DNA from: Massilia putida
GTDB lineage: Bacteria > Pseudomonadota > Gammaproteobacteria > Burkholderiales > Burkholderiaceae_D
Assembly: GCF_001941825.1 (NCBI RefSeq)
Contig: NZ_CP019038.1
Coordinates: 4,526,001-4,590,000, forward strand
Reading direction: 5' to 3'
DNA length: 64,000 nt
A program made the translations under genes and the position numbers. This document shows positions 6,052-52,547 of this stretch, piece after piece (the stretch's first letter is position 1; every line of letters starts with the position of its first letter). The notes below the pieces were generated by a model, which saw only the letters and a list, made by a program, of their open reading frames with translations, did no database searches and had not been told where the DNA came from.

Positions 6052-9000
6052 ATGAACGCTCCTGCCAATATCCACGCCCTGCTCGAAGACAACGCGCCCA
6101 TCCGGCTGCGCGAAATCCCCTATAACTACACGTCGTTCTCCGATCGCGAGATCGTGATCCGTCTGCTGGGCGAGTCATCGTGGCAACTGTTGGACGAATT
6201 GCGCGGCGCCCGCCAGACCGGGCGTTCGGCGCGCATGCTGTACGAAGTCCTGGGCGACATCTGGGTCGTGCGCCGCAATCCGTACTTGCAGGACGACTTG
6301 CTGGACAACCCGAAGCGCCGCGCCAAGCTGATCGAAGCGCTGCACCACCGCCTGGCGGAAGTCGACAAGCGCCGCCTGACGGTGGATAGCAGCGAGGCCG
6401 ATGCGGCCACGGCGAGCCGCCGCAGCGCCGCCGTCGAGGAGCTGCTCGTCGCCGCGCGCAAGGCCGTCGACGACTTCGGCCGCGAGTTCCAGCAGACGTA
6501 CGACCTGCGCAAGCGCGCCCGCGCCGTGCTGGGCCGCTACACCGATAAACGCAACATCCGCTTCGACGGCATGCACCGCACGTCGCACGTGACGGATGCC
6601 ACCGACTGGCGCGTCGAATATCCGTTCCTCGTCCTGATGCCGGATTCGGAAGACGAGATGGCCGGCCTCGTGAAGGGCTGTATCGAGCTCGGTCTGACCA
6701 TCATCCCGCGCGGCGGCGGCACCGGCTACACGGGCGGCGCGATTCCGCTCACGCCCATGTCGGCCGTCATCAACACGGAAAAGCTGATCGGCATGGGCGC
6801 CGTCGAGATGACGCGCCTGCCGGGCGTCGACCGCGATTACGCGACGATCTATACCGGTGCCGGCGTCGTCACGCAGCAGGTGTCGCAGGCGGCCGAGAAG
6901 GCCGGCTTCGTGTTCGCCGTCGATCCGACGTCCGCGCACGCCTCGTGCATCGGCGGGAATATCGCGATGAACGCGGGCGGCAAGAAGGCCGTGCTGTGGG
7001 GCACGGCCCTCGACAACCTCGCGTCGTGGCGCATGGTCGACCCGAACGGCGACTGGCTCGACGTCACGCGCATCGACCACAACCTGGGCAAGATCCACGA
7101 CGCCCCGGTCGCGACGTTCAAGCTCGAATGGACGCATCCGTCGGAAAAGGGCGCGCCGAAGGGCGAGCCGTTCCGCACCGAGACGCTGGCCATCGAAGGC
7201 CGCCGCTTCCGCAAGGAAGGTCTCGGCAAGGACGTCACCGACAAATTCCTCGCGGGCCTGCCGGGCATCCAGAAAGAGGGCACCGATGGCCTGATCACGT
7301 CGGCCCGCTGGATCCTGCACAAGATGCCGAAGTACACGCGCACCGTCGCGCTGGAATTCTTCGGCCAGGCGCGCGATGCGATCCCGTCGATCGTCGAGAT
7401 CAAGGATTACCTGGACAGCCTGCCGAAGAGCGGCAAGCCGGAATTCGCGAGCCTGCGTCTCGCCGGCCTGGAGCACCTGGACGAGCGCTATCTGCGCGCC
7501 GTCGGCTACGCGACGAAATCCAAGCGCGGCACCCTGCCGAAGATGGCGCTGTTCGGCGACATCGTCGGCGACGACGAGAACGCCGTCGCGCTGGCCACGT
7601 CGGAAGTCGTGCGCCTCGCGAACACGCGCGTGGGCGAGGGCTTTATCGCCGTGAGCCCGGAAGCGCGTAAAAAATTCTGGCTCGACCGCTCGCGCACGGC
7701 CGCCATCGCGCGCCACACGAACGCTTTCAAGATCAACGAGGACGTCGTCATCCCGCTGAACCGGATGGGCGAGTACACGGACGGCATCGAGCGCATCAAC
7801 GTCGAGCTGTCGATCAAGAACAAGCTGCAGCTGGTCGAAGAACTGCACGCCTATTTCACGTCCGGGAACCTGGAAGTGACGAAGGCGGACGACGCGACCG
7901 GCGAAGGCGTGTCGAAGGAAGAGATCCTCGGCGACCGTTCGCAGCAGGGCGACGATCTGCTGGCCCGCGTGGCCGCGCGCTGGACCTGGATCATGGCGAA
8001 CCTCGACCAGCCGCTGGGCGCGGTGCTGGACAAGCTGGCCGACTTCGGCCTCGATGGTTTGAGCGGCACGTTCCAGGCGCGCCTCGCGCAGCAACCGGGC
8101 GCCACGCTGTTCGACGTCGTGCAGGACCACACCGTGCGCGTCTCGTGGAAGAACGAGATCCGCGCGCCGCTGCGCCAGATCTTCAACGGCGCGGCCTATA
8201 AACCGATCCTGGACGAGGCCACCGCGATCCACAAGCGCGTGCTGCGTTCGCGCGTGTTCGTCGCGCTGCACATGCACGCGGGCGACGGCAACGTGCACAC
8301 GAACCTGCCGGTGAACTCGGACGACTACGCGATGCTGCAGGATGCGCACAAAGCCGTCGAGCGCATCATGAAGCTCGCGCGTTCGCTGGACGGCGTGATC
8401 TCGGGCGAACACGGCATCGGCATCACGAAGCTGGAATTCCTCACCGAGGACGAGATCCGCGACTTCCGCGACTATAAGAAACGCGTCGACCCGGAAGGCC
8501 GCTTCAACAAGGGCAAGCTGCTCAACAGCGAGACCGCGTACGCCGACCTGCGCAACGCGTACACGCCGTCGTTCGGCCTGATGGGCCACGAATCGCTGAT
8601 CATGCAGCAGAGCGACATCGGCGAGATCGCCAACAGTGTCAAGGATTGCCTGCGCTGCGGTAAGTGCAAGCCCGTGTGCACGACGCACGTGCCGCAATCG
8701 AACCTGCTGTACTCGCCGCGCGACAAGATCCTCGCGACGTCCGCGCTGATCGAAGCGTTCCTGTACGAAGAGCAGACGCGCCGCGGCGTGTCGATCCGCC
8801 ACTGGGAAGAATTCGAGGACGTGTCCGACCACTGCACCGTGTGCCACAAGTGCGTGACGCCGTGCCCGGTCAACATCGACTTCGGCGACGTCTCGATGAA
8901 CATGCGTAACCTGCTGCGCAAGATGGACAAGCGCAGCTTCAAGCCGGCCCAGCGCGCGGGCATGTTCTTCCTGAACGCGACCGACCCGACGACGATCAAC

Positions 9001-10059
9001 ACGATGCGCAAGGGGATGATCGACTGGGGCTACAAGGCCCAGCGTTTAGGCAGCGCCGTGCTGAAGGCAGTCGCGAAAGAACAGACGAAGGCACCGCCTC
9101 CGACGACCGGCAAGGCGCCGATCCGCGAGCAGGTGATCCACTTCGTGAACAAGAAGATGCCGGGCAACCTGCCGAAGAAGACGGCGCGCGCGCTGCTGGA
9201 CATCGAGGACGACAAGGTCATCCCGATCATCCGCAATCCGAAGGTGACGAACGCCGATACGGAAGCCGTGTTCTACTTCCCGGGCTGCGGCTCCGAGCGC
9301 CTGTTCTCGCAGGTGGGCCTGGCCACGCAGGCGATGCTGTGGGAAGTGGGCGTGCAGACCGTGCTGCCGCCGGGCTATCTGTGCTGCGGCTATCCGCAGC
9401 GCGGCGCCGGCCAGTACGACAAGGCCGACAAGATGATGACGGATAACCGCGTGCTGTTCCACCGCATGGCCAACACGCTGAACTACCTCGACATCAAGAC
9501 GGTCCTCGTCTCGTGCGGCACCTGCTACGACCAGCTGGCGACGTACGAGTTCGACAAGATCTTCCCGGGCTGCCGCATCATGGACATCCACGAGTACCTG
9601 CTGGAGAAGGGCGTCAAGCTGGAAGGCGTGACCGGTACGCGCTACATGTACCACGACCCGTGCCATACGCCGATGAAGATGCAGGACTCGATGAAGACCG
9701 TGAACGCGCTGGTGCAGACCGTCGACAACGTCAAGATCGAGAAGAACGACCGCTGCTGCGGCGAGTCGGGCACATTCGCCGTGAGCCGTCCGGACATCTC
9801 GACCCAGGTCCGCTTCCGCAAGGAGCAGGAGATGGTGAAGGGCGCGGATAAACTGCGCGCCGACGGATTCGACGGCGACGTCAAGATCCTGACGAGCTGC
9901 CCGTCCTGCCTGCAAGGCCTGTCGCGCTACAACGACGACTCGGGCACCACGGCCGACTACATCGTCGTCGAAATCGCGCGCCACCTGCTGGGCGAGAACT
10001 GGATGCCGAACTACGTGGCCAACGCCAACAACGGCGGTATCGAGCGGGTGCTCGTATGA
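6052..10059 (+). CDS. DUF3683 / FAD-linked oxidase / Fe-S fusion oxidoreductase (D-2-hydroxyacid dehydrogenase type)
   Basis: A 1335-residue protein. The N-terminus ([18 protein letters not shown]) is the DUF3683 domain. Next come a PCMH-type FAD-binding domain with [11 protein letters not shown] near 218-228 and a GlcD-like C-terminal domain with [17 protein letters not shown] near 742-758. Two ferredoxin-type clusters follow (C866/C869/C872/C876 and C928/C931/C934/C938), then two CCG repeats (FPGCG near 1076, CCGYPQRG near 1111, HDPCH near 1201, RCCGESG near 1233). It looks like GlcD and GlcF fused in one chain, so a membrane-associated dehydrogenase of D-lactate or a similar 2-hydroxyacid feeding quinones is likely; the substrate is not known. 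A -10-like TAGAAT lies at 6008. It overlaps the HIT gene by 4 bp. Confidence 0.9.
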
Positions 10060-41345: not shown

Positions 41346-41350
41346 GAGCC

Positions 41351-41519
41351 GCTACCACAAGCCATCGACACAGCCTGAGCAGATGACGGCGGCGCCAGCG
41401 AAAGGAGCGCGACATGGATGTCTAGTCTGCGCTCGAAACGGATGCGCAACTTGCCGAAGCCGGCGAACCGGGCGTGGTGTCGCTCGACCACCCAGCGATA
41501 CCGGTCCGGAGGCCGGCCG
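41351..41519 (-). pseudogene. IS5-family transposase C-terminal relic, frameshifted
   Basis: On the minus strand, reading from 41519, the fragment DRYRWVVERHHARF then FGKLRIRFERRLDIHVALL is a typical C-terminus of IS5-type DDE transposases (the E of the DDE triad lies in WVVER). Near 41395 the frame must shift by one base to continue as AAVICSGCVDGLW and a stop. The rest of the gene and both inverted ends are gone. The surviving piece fills the 176 bp between the enoyl-CoA hydratase and the dehydrogenase genes. Confidence 0.8.
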
Positions 41520-41521
41520 AA

Positions 41522-42598
41522 TCACACCGCCGCGGCAATCGCCTTGCCGACCTCCGTCGTATTCGCCGTACCGCCCAGGTCCGGCGTCTTCGGCCCCTGC
41601 GCCAGCACCAGCTCGATCGCCTTCATGATGGCCTCGTTCGCAGCCTGGTAACGCTCGTCGCCGTTGCCGAGGAATTCCAGCATCATCGCGCCGGACCAGA
41701 TCATGCCGATCGGATTGGCGATGTTCTTGCCGTAGATGTCGGGCGCGGAACCGTGCACGGGCTCGAACAGTGACGGGAAGGTGCGTTCCGGGTTCAGGTT
41801 GGCCGACGGTGCGATGCCGATGGTGCCGGTGCAGGCCGGGCCCAGGTCCGACAGGATGTCGCCGAACAGGTTGGAGGCGACCACGACGTCGAAACGTTCC
41901 GGCGACAGCACGAAGCGGGCGCACAGGATGTCGATGTGGTACTTGTCCCACTTCACGTCCGGATAGGACTCTCCCATCGCTTCGACCCGCTGGTCCCAGT
42001 AGGGCATGCTGATCGAGATGCCGTTCGACTTGGTGGCGGAGGTCAGGTGTTTTTTCGGACGGCTCTGGGCCAGGTCGAAGGCGTATTTCAAGATGCGGTC
42101 CGTGCCCTTGCGGGTGAACACGGCGTCCTGCACCACGAATTCGCGGTCAGTGCCTTCGAACATCTTGCCGCCCACGGAAGAATATTCTCCCTCCGTGTTT
42201 TCGCGCACCACATAAAAGTCGATGTCGCCGGGCTTGCGGTTGGCCAGCGGGCTCGGCACGCCGGGCATCAGACGCACCGGGCGCAGGTTGACGTACTGGT
42301 CGAACTCGCGGCGGAACTTCAGCAGCGAACCCCACAGGGAGATATGGTCGGGAACCAGGTTGGGCATGCCGGCGGCGCCGAAATAGATGGCGTCGAAGCC
42401 TTCGAGCTGTGTGCGCCAGTCGTCCGGCATCATCTGGCCGTGCTCGAGGTAGTAATCGCAATTGGCCCAGGCCATGGTCGTGAATTCGAGGTCGAGCCCG
42501 AAACGGCTGGCGGCGGCCTCCAGCACGCGCAGGCCTTCCGGCATCACTTCGTTGCCGATGCCGTCGCCGGCGATGACTGCAATCTTCTGCTTCTTCAT
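41522..42598 (-). CDS. Tartrate/D-malate dehydrogenase (DmlA/TtuC family)
   Basis: A 358-residue member of the isocitrate/isopropylmalate dehydrogenase family. The start MKKQKIAVIAGDGIGNEV at ATG 42598 has AAGGAATCACC before it; the longer frame from 42721 is not used. Family marks are RENTEGEYSSVGG, NLFGDILSDLGP and EPVHGSAPDIYGKNIANP. Relatives oxidatively decarboxylate D-malate to pyruvate, or act on tartrate. Placed beside a carnitine-oxygenase set, D-malate is the more likely substrate, because L-carnitine cleavage should yield the R isomer of malate. It points away from the transporter operon but next to its presumed regulator. Its stop abuts the IS relic. Confidence 0.9.
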   Translation of the reverse strand: MKKQKIAVIAGDGIGNEVMPEGLRVLEAAASRFGLDLEFTTMAWANCDYYLEHGQMMPDDWRTQLEGFDAIYFGAAGMPNLVPDHISLWGSLLKFRREFDQYVNLRPVRLMPGVPSPLANRKPGDIDFYVVRENTEGEYSSVGGKMFEGTDREFVVQDAVFTRKGTDRILKYAFDLAQSRPKKHLTSATKSNGISISMPYWDQRVEAMGESYPDVKWDKYHIDILCARFVLSPERFDVVVASNLFGDILSDLGPACTGTIGIAPSANLNPERTFPSLFEPVHGSAPDIYGKNIANPIGMIWSGAMMLEFLGNGDERYQAANEAIMKAIELVLAQGPKTPDLGGTANTTEVGKAIAAAV

Positions 42599-42625
42599 GG
42601 GGTGATTCCTTGAACAGGGTTGACG

Positions 42626-42666
42626 TTGTCGACAAGCATATCGAATACGATCCAACATGTAATCAA
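42626..42666 (-). promoter_or_regulatory. Candidate promoter and operators of the D-malate dehydrogenase gene
   Basis: On the minus strand TTGATT (42666-42661), 17-bp spacer and CGATAT (42643-42638) form a fair sigma-70 promoter. Two palindromes overlap it: ATCG-AATA-CGAT (42640-42651) in the spacer region and TTGTCGACAA (42626-42635) near the start point. Such placement suggests repression, by the neighbouring XRE-PAS protein or another regulator. Confidence 0.4.
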
Positions 42667-42911
42667 GGGATCCGTGAACCGAAAAGACACGAAGCGTAAA
42701 TAATCCTTCGGATGCTTCCACGTCCCATGCGCCCAGAGCTCAGTGCCAGCCGGACCTCGGCACCGTGGCCCACCGGTTCTGGAAGTGCAGGTCGAATTGC
42801 TGGACTGGCCGATCAACTGAGCGCCGAAGGCTTCCAGAGCGCGCTCGGGAACGATGGCAATGTGCGCGTTTGCGTCGCCTTCCTCGAAGAGTGGCTCAAC
42901 GCATCCTGGGT
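42667..42911. other. Intergenic region, possible decayed gene fragment
   Basis: Between the dehydrogenase promoter and the XRE-PAS stop. On the minus strand a segment reading VEPLFEEGDANAHIAIVPER, and in another frame further on VQQFDLHFQNRWATVPRSGWH up to a stop near 42739, has coding-like character split over two frames. I do not recognise the family. No intact gene. Confidence 0.3.
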
Positions 42912-43901
42912 CTATCGGGGCTGGATCGCGACGACGACCCAGGCTAGCGCGCCATCGTCGCGCCTTCCGGCCGTCATGCGGACTTGCGCCGGCAGCGCTT
43001 CGCCGCGGCTGTCCTGCAGGGCGGTCTCGAAGGGGGAGGGCGATTTGGCGCGCGCACTCCGGCGCAGGCGGGCACCGCCGTCGGCGAACCGCTTCAGCAA
43101 GGCCTCGCCTTCCAACTCCGCCTTCGGGTAGCCGAGCCAGGCCGCCAGCGCGTCGTTGACGGACTCGCAGCGCAAGTCGGCATCCAGCAGGGCCATGCCA
43201 TCGGACCCCAGATCGAGCACCGCGCGGCAGCGCGCCCGTTCGTCGCGCAAGGCCTGCTCGACCAGCTTTTGCGCGGTGTTCTCCATGCTGATGCCGACGA
43301 ACTTGATGACGCGTCCGTCGAACTCGCGCACCGGCGTGGCGCGGGAGCTGATCCAGCGGACCGTGCCGTCGGGCTGGATCAGGCGGAAATCGAATTCGTG
43401 CGGGGTGCCGAGACGGATCGACTCTTCGTAGATCCGCTGCATCATCGGGATGTCGTCCGGGTGCACGTGCGTATAGAAGGCTTCGTTGCTCTCGACCTGC
43501 CAGCCGTAGACGGATTCCACGTTCGACGAGTACTTGACGTCGTCGGTGATGAGATCCCATTCCCAGGTCACGATGCGGGCGCCTTCCTGGGCCAGCTTCA
43601 TGCGTGCTTCATTCGCCACCACCTCGGCCGTGTAGCGGCGCCGCACGTCGGTCATCGGCAGGTCGACGCTCGTCGCGCTTTCCATTTCGTGCTGCGCCTG
43701 TTCGCCGTAGCGCAGCCAGACCCAGTTCACGCCCAGGAAGGCCGCCAGCTTGCGCAGCTTCTCGTAATCGATCTCGCCGCCCTTGGTCCACTTGTGCACC
43801 GCCGGCCGGGATACGCCCAACACAGTCGCGACCGCCTGCAAGGTCAGGTTCTTGTGTTCGAGCAGCTCCTTGAGGCGGAACGCAAAACTGTTTTCTGTCA
43901 T
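42912..43901 (-). CDS. XRE-type HTH regulator with PAS domains
   Basis: A 329-residue protein starting MTENSFAF at 43901; an in-frame ATG at 43913 adds four residues. Residues 1-65 are a cI/Cro-like helix-turn-helix (LQAVATVLGVSRPAVHKWTK). A PAS fold with PAC follows (about 95-215, with DITYSSNV-like and RWISSRATPVREFDGRVIKF), then a second, shorter PAS-like segment (about 220-329). It is divergent from the BCCT transporter; two palindromes near that promoter suit a dimeric XRE protein. It is therefore the likely local regulator, probably a repressor relieved by carnitine or a breakdown product. The ligand is not known. Confidence 0.85.
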   Translation of the reverse strand: MTENSFAFRLKELLEHKNLTLQAVATVLGVSRPAVHKWTKGGEIDYEKLRKLAAFLGVNWVWLRYGEQAQHEMESATSVDLPMTDVRRRYTAEVVANEARMKLAQEGARIVTWEWDLITDDVKYSSNVESVYGWQVESNEAFYTHVHPDDIPMMQRIYEESIRLGTPHEFDFRLIQPDGTVRWISSRATPVREFDGRVIKFVGISMENTAQKLVEQALRDERARCRAVLDLGSDGMALLDADLRCESVNDALAAWLGYPKAELEGEALLKRFADGGARLRRSARAKSPSPFETALQDSRGEALPAQVRMTAGRRDDGALAWVVVAIQPR

Positions 43902-43988
43902 AAATCGATCCAAGGTTGGCGGTATGGCACGGTGCCGCTCGAAAGTATAGCTCAGCGACCCCGTGCGTAAAAAACCCGCAAATTCTGC

Positions 43989-44017
43989 TTGTACGCGGCG
44001 CGCAAATTCCCTAGAAT
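43989..44017 (+). promoter_or_regulatory. Promoter of the BCCT-cntA operon
   Basis: TTGTAC (43989-43994), exactly 17 bp, then TAGAAT (44012-44017): a good sigma-70 promoter. The expected start is near 44024, leaving a leader of about 119 nt before ATG 44143. Confidence 0.65.
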
Positions 44018-44023
44018 GAATTC

Positions 44024-44058
44024 GTAAACCGTAGTTTTACCGTAAACCATGAGTTTAC
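44024..44058 (+). promoter_or_regulatory. Tandem operator palindromes at the BCCT-cntA promoter
   Basis: Two imperfect copies lie in tandem: GTAAAC-CGTA-GTTTTAC (44024-44040) and GTAAAC-CATGA-GTTTAC (44042-44058), 18 bp apart. They cover the expected transcription start to about +35, ideal for repression. The size and symmetry fit a dimeric helix-turn-helix protein such as the divergent XRE-PAS product. Confidence 0.6.
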
Positions 44059-44116
44059 AGAACTCCGCAGATGGGCGCCAGTACTGGACCAGACTGCGGC
44101 ACAAATAAATAATCCA

Positions 44117-44130
44117 TGTGAAAGTTCACA
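44117..44130 (+). promoter_or_regulatory. Palindrome before the BCCT ribosome site
   Basis: TGTGAA-AG-TTCACA directly followed by the ribosome site GGAGGAG and ATG 44143. The four-base core is too short for a standard CRP site. It may be another operator or a small RNA hairpin affecting translation. Confidence 0.4.
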
Positions 44131-44142
44131 GGAGGAGACTGT

Positions 44143-45753
44143 ATGAGAAATACCTCGCTACGCAGCGACGGGTTCCTGACCGGCTGCACCATCGCGGCCG
44201 TGCTGGTAACCGTCGTCGCCCTGGCGGAATGGCCTGCCGAGGCAGCTGCCACCGCTTCCCACCTCTTCGAATGGTCGACGCGTGCCTTCGGGGCGTTGGT
44301 CCAGGTACTCGCCTTCGGCTGCGTCCTGGCGTGCCTGGCCCTCGCTTTCAGCACGTACGGCAACGTGAGGCTGGGCGAAGACAAGCCGGAATATTCGACC
44401 CTCTCCTGGATCTTCATGTTCATCTGCGCCGGCATGGGTTCTTCCACCATGTACTGGGGCGTGATGGAGTGGGTCTACTATTACCAGACGCCGGGCCTGA
44501 ACGTCGTCAGCGGCAGCCGCGACGCGCTGGAGTACAGCATCAGCTACTCCTTCTTCCACTGGGGCCTGAGCGCGTGGGCGATCTATGCGCTGCCGTCCCT
44601 GGCCATGGCCTACCACTTCCACGTGAGGAAGAACAAGGGCCTGAACCTGGCCTCCATCGTCGAGGCCATCACGGGCTTCCGCGCTGCCGGCCCGGTCGGG
44701 CGGGTGGTCGACCTGATCTTCCTGCTGACGATGTTCGGCGCGCTGACCGTCTCGATCGCGCTGACCGCCTCGACCCTCACGCGCGGCCTGGCCAGCCTGA
44801 CCGGCGTGCCCGATACCTTCACCACCCAGCTCGTCATCATCATCGGCGTGTCGATCCTGTTCTCGCTGAGCGCCTACGTCGGCATCGACGGCGGCATGCA
44901 GCGCCTGAGCCATATGGTGTGCTGGGGCGCGCTGCTGCTGGCCGCGGTGGTGTTCGTGATCGGTCCGACCCAGTTCACCGGCAGTAATATCGTGAATGGC
45001 CTCGGCCGCATGCTGCAGGACTATGTGCATATGAGCCTCTTCACCGACCCGACCGGGGATGGTTCCTTCAGCCGCAACTGGACGGTGTTCTACTGGCTCT
45101 GGTGGGTGTCGTACTCGCCGGGTGTCGCGATGTTCGTCGCCCGCGTATCGAAGGGCCGCAAGATCAAGGAAGTGATCATGGCGCTCCTGCTGGGCGGCAG
45201 CGTCGGATGCTGGTTCTTCTTCGGCGCGCTCGAAAGCTACAGCATGCACCAGTTCCTGTCGGGCGCCATCGACGTGCCGCGCATCCTGAAGGAGCACGGC
45301 GGCGAAGAGGCGGTCCAGATCCTGCTGAACGCCATGCCGGCCGGTAAATTCTTCCTGGGCGTCTATCTGGCCATCATGGTGGTCTTCCTCGCCGCCCACG
45401 TGGATGCCGTCGCCTATGCCGTGGCCGCCACCACCACCCGCAACCTGCGCGAAGGCGAGGACCCGAGCCCGACCAGCCGCGTGTTCTGGTGCGTGATGCT
45501 GACCCTGGTGCCGCTGGCCATGCTGTTCACCAAGGCGTCGCTGGAAACCATGAAGACCGCCGTGGTGCTGACCGCGATTCCCTTCCTGGCCATCCTCGCC
45601 GTGAAGCTGTTCGGCCTGTTCCGCTGGCTGATCCAGGATTACGGCAACACGCCGGCCCACCTGATCGAGTCGTCCACGATGCCGCCGCCGCATGCGATGC
45701 GTGCGCCGCGGGACCGGGACGCCGGCAGCAAGCGGGCCGCCATCGCGGAGTAA
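44143..45753 (+). CDS. BCCT-family transporter, CaiT-like (carnitine or related betaine)
   Basis: A 536-residue BCCT protein with about 12 transmembrane helices. The substrate helix reads [20 protein letters not shown] (about residues 97-116), closer to CaiT (which has EWAYYYQTP) than to the BetP glycine-rich motif; the family signature [15 protein letters not shown] follows near 312. CaiT-type carriers move carnitine or gamma-butyrobetaine. A methionine two residues before FVAR falls near the place where CaiT replaces the sodium site, so exchange rather than sodium symport is possible. Strong ribosome site GGAGGAG. It heads the operon with the oxygenase genes. Confidence 0.9.
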
Positions 45754-45818
45754 GACCACGGCATCCCCGCCCTGCGTTCGCCGAGCCACATACTCTTTAT
45801 ATTTTTTTACCGTTGTGT

Positions 45819-45831
45819 TAACCAATGGTTA
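45819..45831 (+). promoter_or_regulatory. Palindrome before cntA
   Basis: TAACCA-A-TGGTTA in an A/T-rich 99-bp gap between the transporter and cntA, 21 bp before the cntA start. It may be a second control point, with AT-rich flanks (TATATTTTTTTACC, GTTAAACGTGAGGA). Confidence 0.4.
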
Positions 45832-45852
45832 TCTGTTAAACGTGAGGATACA

Positions 45853-46974
45853 ATGAATCATATCGCCAAGCTGCCGGCCGACTTCTGCGCCGATACCGAA
45901 AACGCCTGGACGCTGCCGGCGTCCTACTACACCGACCCCGCCATCTTCGAGTACGAGAAGGAAAAGATCTTCGCCCACAGCTGGATCTGCGTGGCCCACC
46001 GCAGCGAGCTGGCGGAGACGAACGACTACGTCACCCGCGAGGTGATCGGCGAAAGCATCGTGGTGCTGCGCGACCGCGACGGCGTGCTGCGCGCCTTCTA
46101 CAACGTGTGCCCGCACCGCGGCCACCAGCTGCTGACCGGCAGCGGCCGCGCGCGCAACGTGATCACCTGTCCCTACCACGCCTGGACCTTCAAGCTGGAC
46201 GGCGAGCTGGCCCATGCGCGCAATTGCGACAACGTGCCGAATTTCGACAAGGACAAGTCCAGCCTGGTCCCGCTCAAGGTGGAGGAGTACGCGGGCTTCA
46301 TCTTCATCAACATGGACCCCGAGGCCGGCACCGTGGAAGAGCAGCTGCCCGGCCTGGAAAGCCGTCTGCGCGCGGCCTGTCCGGTGATCGACCAGCTGCA
46401 TCTCGGCGCCCGCTTCGTCACCGAGACGGCCGCCAACTGGAAGAGCATCGTCGACAACTACATGGAGTGCTATCACTGCGGACCGGCCCACCCCGGCTTT
46501 TCCGATTCCGTGCAGGTCGACAAATACGTTCACACCCTGCACGGCAACTGGACCCTGCAGTTCGGCCTGGCCAAGTCCTCGGAAAAATCGTTCAAGCTCG
46601 ACCCCTCGATCAAGGATCCGAGCTTCAGCGGTTTCTGGGCCTGGCCCTGCACCATGTTCAACGTGCCGCCGGGCGCCGACTTCATGACCGTGATCTATGA
46701 ATTGCCGGTCAGCGCCGAGGTCACGCTGCAGCACTACGACATCTACTTCCTCAACAAGGAACTGACCGAGGAGCAGACCAAGCTGGTCGAGTGGTACCGC
46801 ACCGTGTTCCGCCCGGAAGACCTGAATCTGGTCGAAAGCGTGCAGCGCGGCCTGAAGTCGCGCGGCTACCGCGGCCAGGGCCGCATCATGGTGGACCGCC
46901 AACGCAGCGGCATCAGCGAGCACGGCATCGTCCACTTCCACCGCAAGATGGCGAACGAGTACGGCGATGAGTGA
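45853..46974 (+). CDS. cntA: Rieske oxygenase of the carnitine monooxygenase type (CntA/YeaW-like)
   Basis: A 373-residue oxygenase. The Rieske cluster ligands are C86-x-H88 (CPHRGH) and C106-x2-H109 (CPYHAW). The mononuclear site is E205-C-Y-H208 and H213 in the run [12 protein letters not shown], with D323 in [11 protein letters not shown] glutamate at 205 bridging the two centres, where most Rieske oxygenases have aspartate, is the mark of CntA/YeaW; even the numbering agrees with Acinetobacter CntA as I recall it. The enzyme cleaves the C-N bond of carnitine to trimethylamine and malic semialdehyde. Related quaternary amines (gamma-butyrobetaine, betaine) are alternatives. It overlaps the aldehyde dehydrogenase by 8 bp. 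Confidence 0.88.
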
Positions 46975-48445
46975 GCGCGGCCACCTGGAAGGCGCCCCGC
47001 GCCTGAACGACGAGACCCTGTTCCGCCAGCAGGCCTGCATCGGCGGGGAATGGCGCGATGCGGCAAATGGCGCCACCGTGCAGGTGTTCGATCCCGCCGG
47101 CGCCGGGCGCATCGGCAGCGTGCCCTGCATGGGCGAGGCCGAGACGGTGGCGGCGATCGAAGCCGCCCACGCCGCCCTGCCGGCATGGCGCGCCCGCACC
47201 GCGAAGGAACGTGCGGCGCTGCTGCGCGCATGGTACGAGCTGGTCCTGCGGCATGAAGACGACCTGGCCGCCATCATGACCTGGGAGCAGGGCAAACCGC
47301 TGCACGAGGCGCGCGGCGAGATCCGCTACGCCGCCTCCTTCATCGAATGGTTTGCCGAGGAAGGCAAGCGGGTGTACGGCGACGTGATCCCGTCGCCGGG
47401 CGCCGACAAGCGCCTGGTGGTCGTGCGCGAACCGGTCGGCGTCTGCGCCGCCATCACGCCGTGGAACTTCCCGGCCGCGATGATCGCCCGCAAGGCCGGA
47501 CCGGCCCTGGCCGCCGGTTGCACCATGGTCGTCAAGCCCGCCAACGAGACGCCGTTCAGCGCGCTGGCGCTGGCCGATCTCGCGCTGCGGGCCGGCATTC
47601 CCGCCGGCGTGCTGAACGTCGTCACCGGCGATGCCGTCGCCATCGGCAGCCAGCTCACCGGCCATCCGCTGGTGCGCAAGCTGTCGTTCACCGGCTCCAC
47701 GCCGGTCGGGCGCCTGCTGATGCAGCAGTGCGCCGGCACCGTCAAGAAGGTCTCGCTCGAACTGGGCGGCAATGCGCCCTTCATCGTGTTCGAGGATGCC
47801 GACATCGACGCCGCCGTCGACGGCGCACTGCAGGCCAAGTACCGCAACGCCGGCCAGACCTGCGTCTGCGTCAACCGCCTCTACGTGCACGACGCCGTCT
47901 ACGAGCGCTTCGTCGAGCGGTTCTCGGCCAGGGTCGCGCAGCTGCGCGTCGGGCGCGGCTTCGACGCCGCATCCGAGATCGGACCGCTCATCAGCGGCAA
48001 GGCCATCGACAAGGTGGCCGAGCTGGTGGCCGATGCGGTCGGCAAGGGCGCGCGGGTGGCGGTCGGCGGCGCCAAGCATGCCGCCGGCCCCGGCTTCTAT
48101 GCGCCGACGGTGCTGACGGAGGTCGCGCCGGGCATGCGCATCCTCGACGAGGAAGTGTTCGGACCCGTGGCGCCGATCGTGCGCTTCCATGCCGAGGACG
48201 AGGTCGTGCGCATGGCGAACGACACCATCTACGGGCTCGCGGCCTACTTCTACAGCCGGGACATCGGCCGCGCCTGGCGCGTGGCGGAGCAGCTCGAGTA
48301 CGGCATGGTCGGCATCAACACCGGCCTGATCTCGAACGAAGTCGCGCCCTTCGGCGGCGTGAAGCAGTCGGGGCTCGGGCGCGAAGGCTCGCGCTACGGC
48401 ATCGAGGACTACATGGAAATGAAATACCTCTGCATGGCCGTGTAG
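46967..48445 (+). CDS. NAD(P)-dependent aldehyde dehydrogenase, probable malic semialdehyde dehydrogenase
   Basis: A 492-residue member of the succinate-semialdehyde (GabD-like) branch. The base E265 lies in [10 protein letters not shown] and the nucleophile C299 in [23 protein letters not shown] binds the cofactor. Its place between the oxygenase and reductase genes argues that it removes the toxic aldehyde made by CntA, giving malate. Family members with succinate semialdehyde as substrate cannot be excluded by sequence alone. Start overlaps the cntA stop. Confidence 0.9.
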
Positions 48446-48473
48446 GCCAGCGAGGATCGAAGAGATCGCAGCA

Positions 48474-49451
48474 ATGGAAAATTCATATCGGACCATCCCG
48501 GTCAGGGTGGCGCGCATCGAGACCGTCACCCCGCTGATCAAGCGTTTCACCCTCGAAGCCGCCGACGGCGGCACGCTGCCTCCCTTTACCGGCGGCAGCC
48601 ACGTCATCGTGCAGATGCGTGACGGCGCACGGCGCTACAGCAATGCCTATTCGCTGATGAGTTCACCGGAAGCCTTGGGCGCCTACCAGATCGGGGTGCG
48701 CCGCGAGACCCCGTCGAAAGGCGGCTCGGCCTTCCTCCACGACCGGGTGAAGGAGGGCGATCTGCTCGACATCACCACGCCGAACAATCTGTTCGCGCTG
48801 TCGGAGGACGCGCGGCATCACGTGCTGATCGCGGGCGGCATCGGGATCACGCCCTTCATGTCGCAGATGCACGAGCTGCGCCGGCGCGGCGCCTCCCACG
48901 AGCTGCACTACGCCTTCCGCGGGCCCGAGCACGGCGCCTTCAGCCAGGAGCTGGAGGCGCTGGCCGGACAGTCGGCGGGCAAGGTCCGGTTCTATGTCGA
49001 CAGCCTCGGGCAGCAGTTGGACCTGGGCGGCCTGTTCGGCGGCCTGGTTGAAGGCGCGCACATCTACGTCTGCGGCCCGGCGGGCTTGATCGAGGCGGTG
49101 CGCAATGCGGCGCAGGCGGCCGGCGTCGATCCCGGGCGCGTGCACTGGGAGCAGTTTGCCGCCTCCGTGTCCGCGAACGATGGCGCTTTCACGGTGGTGC
49201 TGGCGAAGTCCGGCAAGACCGTCGAAGTCGGCGCCGGGGAATCGATCCTGGCGGCGATCGAAAGGGACAACGCCGTGCAGGTCGAATGCCTGTGTCGCGA
49301 AGGCGTGTGCGGGACCTGCGAGACCCGCATCCTCGAAGGCGAAGCCGAACACCTCGACCAATACCTCAGCAATGCCGAAAAGGACGCCCAGCGGACCATG
49401 ATGATCTGCGTGTCGCGCGCCCGGAACGGCAAGCTGGTGCTGGATCTGTAA
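48474..49451 (+). CDS. cntB: Carnitine monooxygenase reductase subunit (CntB-type)
   Basis: A 325-residue reductase of the phthalate-dioxygenase-reductase layout. A flavin-binding barrel with RRYSNAYSLMSSP, an NAD-binding domain with VLIAGGIGITPFMSQM, and a C-terminal plant-type 2Fe-2S ferredoxin with C274-x4-C279-x2-C282-x29-C312. It passes electrons from NAD(P)H to the Rieske centre of the oxygenase. It follows the aldehyde dehydrogenase after 28 bp and lies just upstream of a porin. Confidence 0.9.
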   Translation: MENSYRTIPVRVARIETVTPLIKRFTLEAADGGTLPPFTGGSHVIVQMRDGARRYSNAYSLMSSPEALGAYQIGVRRETPSKGGSAFLHDRVKEGDLLDITTPNNLFALSEDARHHVLIAGGIGITPFMSQMHELRRRGASHELHYAFRGPEHGAFSQELEALAGQSAGKVRFYVDSLGQQLDLGGLFGGLVEGAHIYVCGPAGLIEAVRNAAQAAGVDPGRVHWEQFAASVSANDGAFTVVLAKSGKTVEVGAGESILAAIERDNAVQVECLCREGVCGTCETRILEGEAEHLDQYLSNAEKDAQRTMMICVSRARNGKLVLDL

Positions 49452-49486
49452 TTCCAAGAGAGCGATAGAACGCCATGGAGGAGACA

Positions 49487-50587
49487 ATGATGAAAGACGC
49501 GGGTTCGTGGAAGAGGGCGGCCGTTTTCTGGCTGACCGCAGGCATGCTGACGCCGCTGACGGCAGCCGCCGAATCGGGGGTGACGGTGTACGGCGTGATC
49601 AGTTCGGCGCTGAGATACACCTCGAATATCGACGGCAGGGAACATAATAAAACCGAAGTGGTGGCCAGCGGGATCGGCGGCAGCCGCCTGGGCATCTCCG
49701 GAACCGAGGATCTCGGCGGCGGCAACAAGGCCATCTTCCAGCTCGAGAGCGGTTTCGGCACCGATACCGGCCAGCCCGAGTACGGCATCCTGTTCGGCAG
49801 GCAGGCCTTCGTGGGCTTGAGCGGTTCCTGGGGCAGCCTGACTGTCGGCCGCCAGTACAACGCCGTGAACAACGTCGGCTGGTCCTTCAATCCACTGGAC
49901 CAGAGCTGGGGCAACTACTGGTCCGATCCGTACTACACGGGCGGCGACATCTTCATGCAGGGCTACCGCATCAACAACAGCGTCATCTACAAGCGCACCA
50001 TCGGCCCGGTCAGCCTCCAGCTCGATTACGGGGCGGGCGAGCAGACGGGCGGCGGTACGCGCGGCTCGACCTTCGGCGGCGGCATCATGTATTCGAAGGA
50101 GGGCCTGGGACTGGGCGCCGCCTACGACGAGCGCCGCGCGGCGTCGAGCGACGGCAACACCGTGAGCAACTACACCCTGGGCGCATCCTACGCCGCCGGC
50201 AAGGCGACCACTTATCTCGGCCGGATGGGGCGCCACGAAAGCGCCGGCCACGCGCGCTTCGCCATCTCCTTCATCGGTCTGGGCTACCAGCTCACGCCGG
50301 CCCTGCATCTGTCGGGCGCCTTTTACCGCTACGTCCAGAACGGCGGCGTGACGACCCAGTTCGAGGCGACGCCGCTACCGCTCGGCAGCGGCCATACCAA
50401 TGTGTTCGCTGCCGTGGCGGACTATGCGCTGTCCAAGCGCACCAGCCTGTTCCTGGAAGCGGATGTGAACGATGCGCACGACGGCGCGGTGGGCCGCGAG
50501 ACCGAATACTGGGGCTCGGGACCGGTCATCGGCATCGGCCATGCGGCTCGCAAGGGGGTGATGCTCGGCTTGCGGCACCAGTTCTAG
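49487..50587 (+). CDS. Gram-negative porin
   Basis: A 366-residue outer-membrane barrel of the betaproteobacterial Omp32-type family. A signal peptide (KRAAVFWLTAGMLTPLTAAA) is followed by SGVTVYGVISSALRY, and the chain ends in the sorting signal phenylalanine (LGLRHQF). KLTVGRQY-like GSLTVGRQYN and SRLGISGTEDLGGG are family blocks. GGAGGAGA precedes ATG 49487 (49490 is also possible). Only 35 bp separate it from cntB, so it is probably the outer-membrane entry port for the operon's substrate. Confidence 0.9.
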   Translation: MMKDAGSWKRAAVFWLTAGMLTPLTAAAESGVTVYGVISSALRYTSNIDGREHNKTEVVASGIGGSRLGISGTEDLGGGNKAIFQLESGFGTDTGQPEYGILFGRQAFVGLSGSWGSLTVGRQYNAVNNVGWSFNPLDQSWGNYWSDPYYTGGDIFMQGYRINNSVIYKRTIGPVSLQLDYGAGEQTGGGTRGSTFGGGIMYSKEGLGLGAAYDERRAASSDGNTVSNYTLGASYAAGKATTYLGRMGRHESAGHARFAISFIGLGYQLTPALHLSGAFYRYVQNGGVTTQFEATPLPLGSGHTNVFAAVADYALSKRTSLFLEADVNDAHDGAVGRETEYWGSGPVIGIGHAARKGVMLGLRHQF

Positions 50588-50767
50588 CTGGTTCCGGCGC
50601 ACATTCCATGAAAGGGACGCGCGACCTGTTCACATATCCAGGCAGGTCGCACGGCTGGGGCCGCGGTTACGCTGCACCCAGCGCAGGTTTGCCGTGTGAG
50701 CGATTCACGGCCGCGCTTGACCATCATCGTGACTTGTGCCGGTGGCTCCTAAGAACGCGCGCCCGGA

Positions 50768-51445
50768 TCAGTACGCCAGCGAGCCCGCCATCGCGGACTG
50801 CACCAGGTCGTCGATCTCGCCGGTGACGTTGGTCATCGTGCTCGCCACGACGGCGAACTCGTTGCCGACCGGGCCGGCGCGCGCGGCCACGATCTGCGCG
50901 TTGAACGCGATCATGCGGGCCTGGCGCGCGATGGTCTTGATGTCGGCCATCATGTCCTGCATCTGTTTGCGCTGCTGCTGGGCATGACGCTTGGACTGTT
51001 CTTCATAGACCAGCGTCAAGGTGTTGAGCACACCGAGCAGCGGCGTCGCGCTGCGCACCAGGTCGTCGAGCAGGGCCGGCACGCGGGGCGATGCCGCGCC
51101 GATGGCGTCCAGCGTCGTTCCGGCCAGCGCGATGAACTCCCGGATGATCCGGTCGCCCTGCAACGTCCCGAAATAGGCATCGTGCAATTGCCGGCAGAAG
51201 ATGCCCGGCAATCCTTTCTTGCCCTCGACCAACGTGATGTGCGCATCGGTGAACGCGGCCAGCACCTCGCGGGCGGTCTGGTCCGCGCCTTCATGGCCGA
51301 GCGACGCCAGCACCGCATACAGTACCGCCCGCTGGGACGTGAAGCGCCGCCGGCCGGACAGGTTGATCAAGACACCGAACACATCGCCGGACAGTTTGGT
51401 CTCGGGGGCAGCAGGGCGGGTAGCGGGAATTTCGGCGTACAGCAT
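50768..51445 (-). CDS. Short MCP-like signalling-tip protein
   Basis: A 225-residue soluble protein. The N-terminal 150 residues have no family I recognise; the last 50 include the core of a methyl-accepting chemotaxis hairpin (IAFNAQIVAARAG, then GNEFAVVASTM), preceded by a coiled coil (EEQSKRHAQQQRKQMQDMMA). There is no membrane segment and no room for methylation helices. Start at ATG 51445 is preceded by GGAG; the frame extends to 51541. It may dock to CheA/CheW or be a cytosolic sensor. The neighbours give no clue: it is convergent with the porin and divergent from lysR. Confidence 0.65.
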   Translation of the reverse strand: MLYAEIPATRPAAPETKLSGDVFGVLINLSGRRRFTSQRAVLYAVLASLGHEGADQTAREVLAAFTDAHITLVEGKKGLPGIFCRQLHDAYFGTLQGDRIIREFIALAGTTLDAIGAASPRVPALLDDLVRSATPLLGVLNTLTLVYEEQSKRHAQQQRKQMQDMMADIKTIARQARMIAFNAQIVAARAGPVGNEFAVVASTMTNVTGEIDDLVQSAMAGSLAY

Positions 51446-51650
51446 GATGAGCTCCATTCGGTTCGACCGCCTGCGGGGCGGCTGACGGGATACACGTTGC
51501 AGGTTCCATGCCAACCCGGATCGGGCTTTTCCGCCATCCATGCACCGACTTGAACCAGGTCCTCACGAAATCTGCACCCGGACGTGAGCACGCCGCCCCG
51601 AGAATGCGCAAGTCGGTAGCGCTTGACGGCACATGCGACAATAGTCAGCC

Positions 51651-52547
51651 ATGAACCTGCATCGTCTCGACCTCGTCTCGCTTTCCCTGTTCAGCCAGGT
51701 GGTGCGCTCCGGCAGCATCAGCAAGGGCGCGCTGCTCGCCAACCTGGCCGTCGGGGCGGCGAGCAAGCGCATTTCCGACCTGGAGGCCGCCGTCGGCGCC
51801 GCGCTGTTCGAACGCCACTCGCGCGGCATCACGCCCACCGCGGCCGGCCTCGCGCTGGCCCGGCATGCGCAGCGCATCCTCGGCGACGTCAACCTGCTGG
51901 CCGCCGAACTGCACGACCACGCCAGCGGCATCGTCGGCGTGGCGCGCCTGTGGGCCAACACCTCCGCCATCACCCAGTTCCTGCCGGCCGACATCGCGGC
52001 CTTCGCCAAGGCCAATCCGGCGATCCGGATCGAGCTCGCGGAACTCAACAGCGGCGAGATCGTGCTGGGCGTGCTGGAAGGCCGCGCCGACATCGGCATC
52101 TTCGCCGACCGCACCCCGGCCCTCGGCCTGCACCTGATGTCCTACCGCGAAGACCGCCTCGTGCTGGTGGTCCCGGCCGGCCATCCGCTCGCCAAGCGCC
52201 GCAGCCTGCGGTTCGAGGAGGCGACCGACTACGATGTCGTCAGCCTGTCGCAGGGCACCTCGCTGGCGCAGCGGCTGCAGGCCGAGACGGAAGCGATGGG
52301 ACGGCGCCTGCGCGTGCGCATCCAGGTGCGCAGCTTCGACGCGATGTGCCAGATGGTGGCGGCCGGCCTGGGCGTCGCGGTGCTGCCGGCCGACGCCGTG
52401 CGCGCGCTCGTGCGCTCGCTGAACCTGCGCCAGATTCCGCTCACCGATGCGTGGGCGCGGCGCCAGCTCCTGATCGGCGTGCGCGACCTGGAGACCCTGC
52501 CGCGCCACGCGCGCCTGCTCGTGGACCACCTCGCCGGCGGCGCCTAG
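51651..52547 (+). CDS. LysR-family transcriptional regulator
   Basis: A 298-residue LysR protein. The winged helix-turn-helix is about 5-65 (FSQVVRSGSISKGALLANL, FERHSRGITPTAAG); the effector domain follows (90-295, with DIGIFADRTPALGL). It lies 146 bp upstream of the MFS-CoA transferase-lyase genes on the same strand and is the likely activator of that operon. The preceding 205-bp gap holds no other gene. Confidence 0.9.
   Translation: MNLHRLDLVSLSLFSQVVRSGSISKGALLANLAVGAASKRISDLEAAVGAALFERHSRGITPTAAGLALARHAQRILGDVNLLAAELHDHASGIVGVARLWANTSAITQFLPADIAAFAKANPAIRIELAELNSGEIVLGVLEGRADIGIFADRTPALGLHLMSYREDRLVLVVPAGHPLAKRRSLRFEEATDYDVVSLSQGTSLAQRLQAETEAMGRRLRVRIQVRSFDAMCQMVAAGLGVAVLPADAVRALVRSLNLRQIPLTDAWARRQLLIGVRDLETLPRHARLLVDHLAGGA

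Follow-up and report, generated by a model that had tools for sequence, protein, structure and literature searches.

Among the closest known counterparts of the system considered here is the carnitine operon of Acinetobacter baumannii, which comprises the genes carR, mdh, bcct, hyd, cntA, msadh, and cntB. Reconstitution of the Acinetobacter pathway has followed carnitine through its cleavage to trimethylamine and malic semialdehyde, and on to D-malate and then pyruvate, and CarR was described as a LysR-type activator with L-carnitine-dependent binding (PMC11353897). In Escherichia coli, the corresponding cluster is dmlR-dmlA-yeaV-yeaW-yeaX. A LysR-preceded carnitine module (CAR) on the Psychrobacter plasmid pP32BP2 was judged by its authors to have been acquired by transfer (PMC6514802), and cntA is on record in Betaproteobacteria, Cupriavidus included (PMC5433236). 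In this work, we describe a carnitine gene cluster of Massilia putida, located at positions 41522–50587 of a 64,000-nucleotide stretch of contig NZ_CP019038.1 (referred to as the window), and focus on its regulatory arrangement.

The cluster consists of seven genes, every one an intact open reading frame (ORF) by ORF calling on the window, and family profile scans back the assignment of each. Thus, the gene set that the initial annotation placed in about 9 kb was borne out, including a complete enzyme set down to pyruvate (the D-malate dehydrogenase DmlA, the oxygenase CntA, an aldehyde dehydrogenase, and the reductase CntB, by family scans and identities), as well as a porin (Pfam Porin_4) and a PAS-type regulator (Pfam HTH_3 and PAS) of its own. 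The description of the cluster as self-contained holds for the enzymes, the porin, and this regulator, but not for the LysR gene carR, which is decayed in this strain. We consider it quite probable that the whole represents a horizontally inserted L-carnitine island that encodes the CntAB route to pyruvate, is controlled by the XRE-PAS protein through tandem operators, and has suffered the decay of CarR.

In the proposed pathway, carnitine would cross the outer membrane through the porin, a role that we infer, and would then be taken up by the BCCT carrier, as its homology suggests. CntB would hand electrons from NADH to CntA, which would cut the C-N bond of carnitine to release trimethylamine and malic semialdehyde; the aldehyde dehydrogenase would convert the latter to D-malate, and DmlA would decarboxylate D-malate to pyruvate. 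These steps are published for the Acinetobacter enzymes, and homology and conserved residues point to the same steps in this strain. Since the Acinetobacter pathway has been reconstituted (PMC11353897) and betaproteobacterial cntA has been published, the chemistry of the cluster is not new. Further use of trimethylamine via Tmm was considered and rejected, as the sole FMO-family match scores 23.2 bits (Pfam cut-off 22) and spans 41 of 532 positions. Four matches to the synthetase model TIGR03105, presumably a marker of the methylamine route, all fall under the cut-off, in a search that did not extend to trimethylamine dehydrogenase and other trimethylamine routes.

The island shares orthologues of mdh, bcct, cntA, msadh, and cntB with the Acinetobacter operon (compared via locus L064 of A. 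nosocomialis), together with the predicted chemistry; unlike that operon, it has no hyd, a decayed carR, an added XRE-PAS gene and porin gene, and dmlA on the opposite strand. The D-malate dehydrogenase, the carrier, and the monooxygenase pair are common to the E. coli cluster, which in contrast is without the aldehyde dehydrogenase, XRE-PAS, and porin (PMC11353897). The Psychrobacter module differs in being plasmid-borne and Acinetobacter-like, with no mention of "XRE" in PMC6514802. Clusters of Cupriavidus, Pandoraea, and Burkholderiaceae bacterium 16 share XRE-PAS, BCCT, CntA (85–89% identity), malic semialdehyde dehydrogenase (MSA-DH), CntB, and porin, as well as the operator site (with 1 mismatch in one of these loci, L015); unlike Massilia, they keep an adjoining LysR gene (6/6), and in two of the six dmlA was not found nearby. 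The idea that XRE-PAS and the porin are Massilia specialities was therefore rejected, both being present in Cupriavidus, Pandoraea, and part of Achromobacter. For the same reason, the view that this form is peculiar to an Oxalobacteraceae soil bacterium is not supported; betaproteobacterial cntA genes are also already in print (PMC5433236).

Within the genus, the island is rare. A CntA-class match was found in 4 of 62 genus genomes, two of them (the window's genome and G052, taken to be Massilia sp. PDC64) at 98–100% and the two others at about 52%, so the island is carried by 2/62 genomes, the window's included. In a family sample, 4 of 392 genomes gave such a match, three at at least 70% (the window's genome, G052, and G177 at 71%). 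The last of these belongs to a second genus of the family, and at positions 7108–9359 of its locus L134 genes for CntB and CntA (71%) are present; the 16 kb examined revealed neither XRE-PAS nor a carrier or aldehyde dehydrogenase of the cluster's type. When 16 stretches around the flanking enoyl-CoA hydratase gene were compared, 15 were without the island, the remaining one being G052. At the empty site of G015, 37 bp, counting the stop codon, separate the hydratase gene from a LysR gene, and homology of the window to G015 ends at 41352 and resumes at 51649. In G017, G018, G022, G023, G031, and G057, 0.5–4 kb of other DNA separates the hydratase from this LysR gene; in the other eight cluster-free stretches, it was not found within the stretch. 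This flanking LysR gene (51651–52547) was rejected as the cluster's regulator because it occupies the same place in G015 and in the six cluster-free genomes just named. We infer that the island was gained from a Cupriavidus-like donor. A nearby plasmid donor was rejected, as CntA occurs in 15 of 72,556 plasmid records, all at 60–80% identity and none close (the best, from Burkholderia multivorans, at 77%).

The look-up of synteny in other Massilia proposed in the initial annotation revealed the same gene set at the same genomic site in PDC64, with 94–98% protein identity. The flanks match at 92.3 and 93.3%, two long pieces of the island at 94.8 and 96.3%, and 53 bp within the carR remnants at 88.7%. 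PDC64 differs in its intact carR and in both edges. At the left edge of the window's island, positions 41346..41521 (minus strand) may encode a C-terminal remnant of a DDE transposase, judged from the translation and a weak Pfam DDE_Tnp_1 match (13.7 bits, E 0.054, cut-off 23); this stretch is absent from the same edge in PDC64. At the right edge, a 257-aa ORF at 50768–51541 with a partial MCP signalling domain (54/172 profile positions) is likewise absent there in PDC64. What lies between the hydratase gene and the LysR gene, the interval that corresponds to 41352–51649, varies from one genome of the genus to another (the window, L115, L117, L118, L123, and L124), as at an insertion hot spot.

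The XRE-PAS gene (42912..43901, minus strand) encodes a helix-turn-helix and two PAS domains (Pfam HTH_3 and PAS), and its product is likely the regulator of the carrier-cntA-aldehyde dehydrogenase-cntB-porin operon. One helix-turn-helix and two PAS folds also appear in its structure model (pLDDT 85, pTM 0.49), with FixL PAS domains as the nearest structures. In an alignment of 18 sequences, the recognition helix is invariant at most positions, as are several aromatic residues in the first PAS domain; that these aromatic residues enclose a quaternary amine as a cage is speculation. We surveyed as relatives the best 80 of at least 570 cntA loci, with our own thresholds and over the stretches around the locus only; absences may thus reflect contig ends or genes elsewhere. 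XRE-PAS was detected at 38 of these 80 loci, a LysR gene of the CarR/DmlR type at 71, and both at 31; a GabD/MSA-DH-type dehydrogenase is present at 58, DmlA at 67, and hyd at 27 (Acinetobacter 21, Aquitalea 4, Neisseriaceae 2). Acinetobacter (21/21 loci) and E. coli have the LysR regulator only, many Pseudomonas (20/33) and Cupriavidus (4/4) have both, and XRE-PAS without LysR is found in this Massilia and in Achromobacter (4/4). The chances appear evenly balanced that, in Pseudomonas and Burkholderiales alike, operons converting carnitine to trimethylamine are switched by XRE-PAS as an undescribed ligand sensor that acts via the site GTwAAC-N5-GTTwAC; no publication on an XRE-PAS carnitine regulator was found in the open-access literature. 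The genome also encodes an XRE-PAS paralogue (46%) at G000:C3:1517514-1519807, beside an aldehyde dehydrogenase (39%) and with no CntA-like match there.

The divergent region 43902–44142 contains two operator-like palindromes in tandem, revealed by a palindrome search: O1, GTAAACCGTAGTTTTAC, at 44024..44040, and O2, GTAAACCATGAGTTTAC, at 44042..44058, with the consensus GTwAAC-N5-GTTwAC. Most likely, the divergent XRE-PAS protein would act on them to control the carrier-to-porin operon. When up to one mismatch is allowed, O1 and O2 are the sole copies in the 64 kb window, where shuffling gives an expectation of 0.01. O2 is the only exact GTAAAC-N5-GTTTAC in the 7.5-Mb genome (control 0), and the looser GTNAAC-N5-GTTNAC has six genomic copies (control one). 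Across the 1.59 Mb of the 80 relatives, there are 41 exact copies of GTNAAC-N5-GTTNAC, all in one of two positions: 30 precede bcct by at most 350 bp (or cntA, at loci with no bcct detected ahead of it), and the other 11 lie 65–68 bp before an XRE-PAS gene. The exact upstream site is present at 25 of 38 XRE-PAS loci vs 5 of 42 other loci (Fisher p 6.5e-7), and a site with at most one mismatch within 200 bp upstream of the carrier or cntA is present at 34/38 vs 10/42 (Fisher p 1.7e-9), both among relatives that are not independent. The background of the same loci (35 matches with at most one mismatch in 1.56 Mb) would give an expectation of 0.0045.

XRE-PAS perhaps acts by repression that carnitine or one of its products would relieve. 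A possible sigma-70-type promoter, TTGTAC-17-TAGAAT (43989..44017, plus strand; 8/12 matches by our own script without shuffled control), lies directly before O1, and 14 of 19 rows, chosen by hand and scored without shuffled control, have a -10-like element that precedes the operator by 6–27 bp. A stricter promoter scan tool (needing 9/12) named TGGACC-17-AATAAT at 44085–44113 and one minus-strand site (2 found, 0.1 expected), and the promoter at 43989–44017 is not among its sites. Because the script and the tool name different promoters, repression is a guess.

Several points weigh against the proposed interpretation. Besides the dependence among the relatives in the operator counts, the ten site-bearing loci without detected XRE-PAS have to be accounted for: nine are from named Pseudomonas (L032, L034, L035, L043, L045, L048, L049, L050, and L051) and one is from a Pantoea sp. 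(L054). Two of them (L032 and L034) stop soon after cntB, near the expected place of XRE-PAS, and eight do not. Conversely, 4 of 38 XRE-PAS loci (L017, L041, L060, and L061) have no site at the carrier or cntA, L060 and L061 bearing a 1-mismatch site before XRE-PAS instead. The repressor mode depends on a weak promoter match, and the promoter at 44085–44113 would place O1 and O2 upstream of it, as for an activator. With CarR gone, expression of DmlA could be poor. Finally, the putative MSA-DH (46967..48445, plus strand), a GabD-like protein assigned by identity to the Acinetobacter MSA-DH and by residues, is 65.6% identical to the nearest GabD-like paralogue of its own genome vs 62.7% to the Acinetobacter orthologue (L064); it passes the SSADH subfamily model TIGR01780 and, at 797 bits, falls just under the cut-off of 828 of the GabD model NF008415.

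Because of this nearer paralogue and the subfamily model passed, the MSA-DH role rests on one asparagine and on gene context. All seven checked residues are kept, including Cys290, Glu256, Arg166, Arg284, and Ser447. The residue roles, including that of the Asn tied to dual cofactor use, were taken from PMC11353897. This Asn (Asn184; Asn193 here) is kept in the island's enzyme and replaced by Glu in the genome's three closest GabD-like paralogues, which share most of the other checked residues; the two paralogues beyond the nearest are 63.5 and 55.5% identical to the enzyme.

The state of carR bears on whether the island is used at all. In PDC64, an intact carR encoding a 303-aa LysR protein lies between dmlA and XRE-PAS (L009, 6160–7071). 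By alignment with PDC64, the window retains about 150 bp of this 912-bp gene within 42727..42910 (plus strand), in three pieces at about 42727–42752, 42779–42830, and 42839–42910, so no intact LysR gene stands beside the operon in the window. Elsewhere in the genome, the best CarR-like protein detected reaches 52% identity. It is conceivable, though unlikely, that owing to the loss of this activator the enzyme-complete island is silent or weakly used in the strain; the fragmentation of carR, the distance of its best substitute, and the L-carnitine-dependent activator role of CarR in Acinetobacter (PMC11353897) would favor such a state. Against it stand the seven intact genes with their high identity to PDC64 and the Achromobacter loci that have XRE-PAS and no CarR in the stretch examined (4/4). 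Moreover, in L015, carR is divergent from dmlA and XRE-PAS is divergent from bcct-cntA; because of such arrangements, we suggest that CarR serves dmlA and XRE-PAS the remaining genes, and the divergent carR-dmlA pair would then mean that CarR may serve DmlA alone.

A somewhat less probable alternative is that a different factor binds the palindromes, with XRE-PAS as a passenger. The ten loci that carry the site with no XRE-PAS gene detected in the stretch examined fit this view, whereas the 11 exact copies at a near-fixed distance before the XRE-PAS genes themselves, and the absence of upstream sites from all Acinetobacter (21) and Aquitalea (4) loci, which have no XRE-PAS, argue for control by the XRE-PAS protein. 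At five of the loci without detected XRE-PAS (L034, L035, L045, L048, and L054), the left arm of the operator-like site is altered (GTTATC or GTTACC), perhaps by decay.

The oxygenase gene (45853..46974, plus strand) encodes CntA, the Rieske component (group Va) of carnitine monooxygenase, as the initial annotation had recognized. Its closest solved structures are carnitine monooxygenase 6y8j (667 bits) and the variant 6y9c (663 bits), the next molecule reaching 114 bits, and it is 73.0% identical to CntA of A. nosocomialis (L064) and 69.5% to E. coli YeaW. The Fe ligands of CntA are His208, His213, and Asp323. All 16 checked positions, the Rieske Cys/His set among them, are identical in the same numbering; besides these ligands, Tyr203, Glu205, Cys206, Cys209, Phe216, Phe247, Phe258, Tyr295, and Phe319 are kept. 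The roles of Tyr203 (pi-cation), the bridging Glu205, Tyr295, and the Cys206/Cys209 pair were taken from PMC7948474 and PMC10952381. In a tree of 36 rows, chosen by hand from 91 extracted sequences and including no characterized betaine demethylase, the window's CntA and that of PDC64 join at 100/99 and are joined next by Cupriavidus, Pandoraea, and Achromobacter at 89/83, under the starred support level, while five Rieske paralogues from the same genome lie past one 100/100 branch. The finer placement is unsure, given 10 open branches among the 33 inner ones and the great length of the paralogue branches.

It seems improbable that another quaternary amine (gamma-butyrobetaine, choline, or a betaine) is the main substrate and carnitine a secondary one. 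A GabD-like dehydrogenase would also suit succinic semialdehyde, the product expected from gamma-butyrobetaine. Butyrobetaine is also turned over by CntA and YeaW, and choline by YeaW (PMC5433236). However, Y203, Y295, F216, F247, F258, and F319 are all conserved, and the island's D-malate dehydrogenase suits the product of carnitine and not those of the other amines. Identity of the oxygenase as a demethylase of glycine betaine (GbcA) or stachydrine was rejected as most improbable: although the GbcA model NF058607 is its top NCBIfam match, the 154 bits lie far under the cut-off of 670, the match to CntA (667 bits over 366 residues) dwarfs that to the demethylase entry 4qup, which we take to be the stachydrine enzyme (108 bits over 209 residues), and the genome's own GbcA-like paralogue falls outside in the tree, so that the comparison with CntA, YeaW, GbcA, and stachydrine demethylase proposed earlier sides with CntA and YeaW.

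The D-malate/tartrate dehydrogenase DmlA/MDH (41522..42598, minus strand), predicted to convert D-malate to pyruvate and CO2, scores 566 bits with the tartrate/D-malate dehydrogenase model TIGR02089 (cut-off 470) and is 71.8% identical to the Acinetobacter MDH (L064) and 75.4% to E. coli DmlA. The starts of DmlA (ATG 42598) and XRE-PAS (ATG 43901) were chosen by hand and are shorter than the longest ORFs. The carrier (44143..45753, plus strand) is of the YeaV/Aci01347 type, with predicted L-carnitine uptake, and is 55.6% identical to the Acinetobacter BCCT of L064 and 60.8% to E. coli YeaV. It scores 846 bits with NF007412 (cut-off 647), presumably the YeaV-type model, and 333 bits with the CaiT model NF002887 (cut-off 541), so its earlier designation as CaiT-like was rejected. 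CntB (48474..49451, plus strand) is a flavin/ferredoxin reductase with FAD, NAD, and Fer2 (2Fe-2S) domains, 54.4% identical to the Acinetobacter CntB (L064). The outer-membrane porin (49475..50587, plus strand; Pfam Porin_4, 139 bits) follows cntB at 9 of 80 relatives, namely Massilia (1), Cupriavidus (4), Pandoraea (1), Burkholderiaceae bacterium 16, and Achromobacter (2/4).

A sister cluster was observed in three other Massilia-genus genomes (L131, 1158–10521; L132, 7148–16815; L133, 6950–16306). It contains XRE-PAS, a CntA-like oxygenase (50–52%), a CntB-like reductase, and a Gcw_chp protein. In the L133 oxygenase, Tyr295 is replaced by Phe, and Phe216 and Phe319 by Leu. L133 also encodes a betaine-aldehyde-dehydrogenase-like protein that falls under the cut-off, and L131 a choline dehydrogenase that passes TIGR01810 and a permease that passes the trimethylamine N-oxide (TMAO) permease model NF053774. 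Possibly, the sister cluster encodes a choline/betaine pathway with a relative of CntA.

Trimethylamine formed from carnitine is a precursor of TMAO. While the pathway is known, its regulatory variant, XRE-PAS with a conserved site, looks undescribed; in the open-access literature covered, accounts of how cntAB is controlled concern the LysR form only. Regulator and operator are common to many Pseudomonas and Burkholderiales cntA loci, which offers a sequence rule for which cntA strains may be inducible, and the pair constitutes a small regulatory system that is directly testable. The island also illustrates the entry of a pathway into a genus that mostly lacks the carnitine route.

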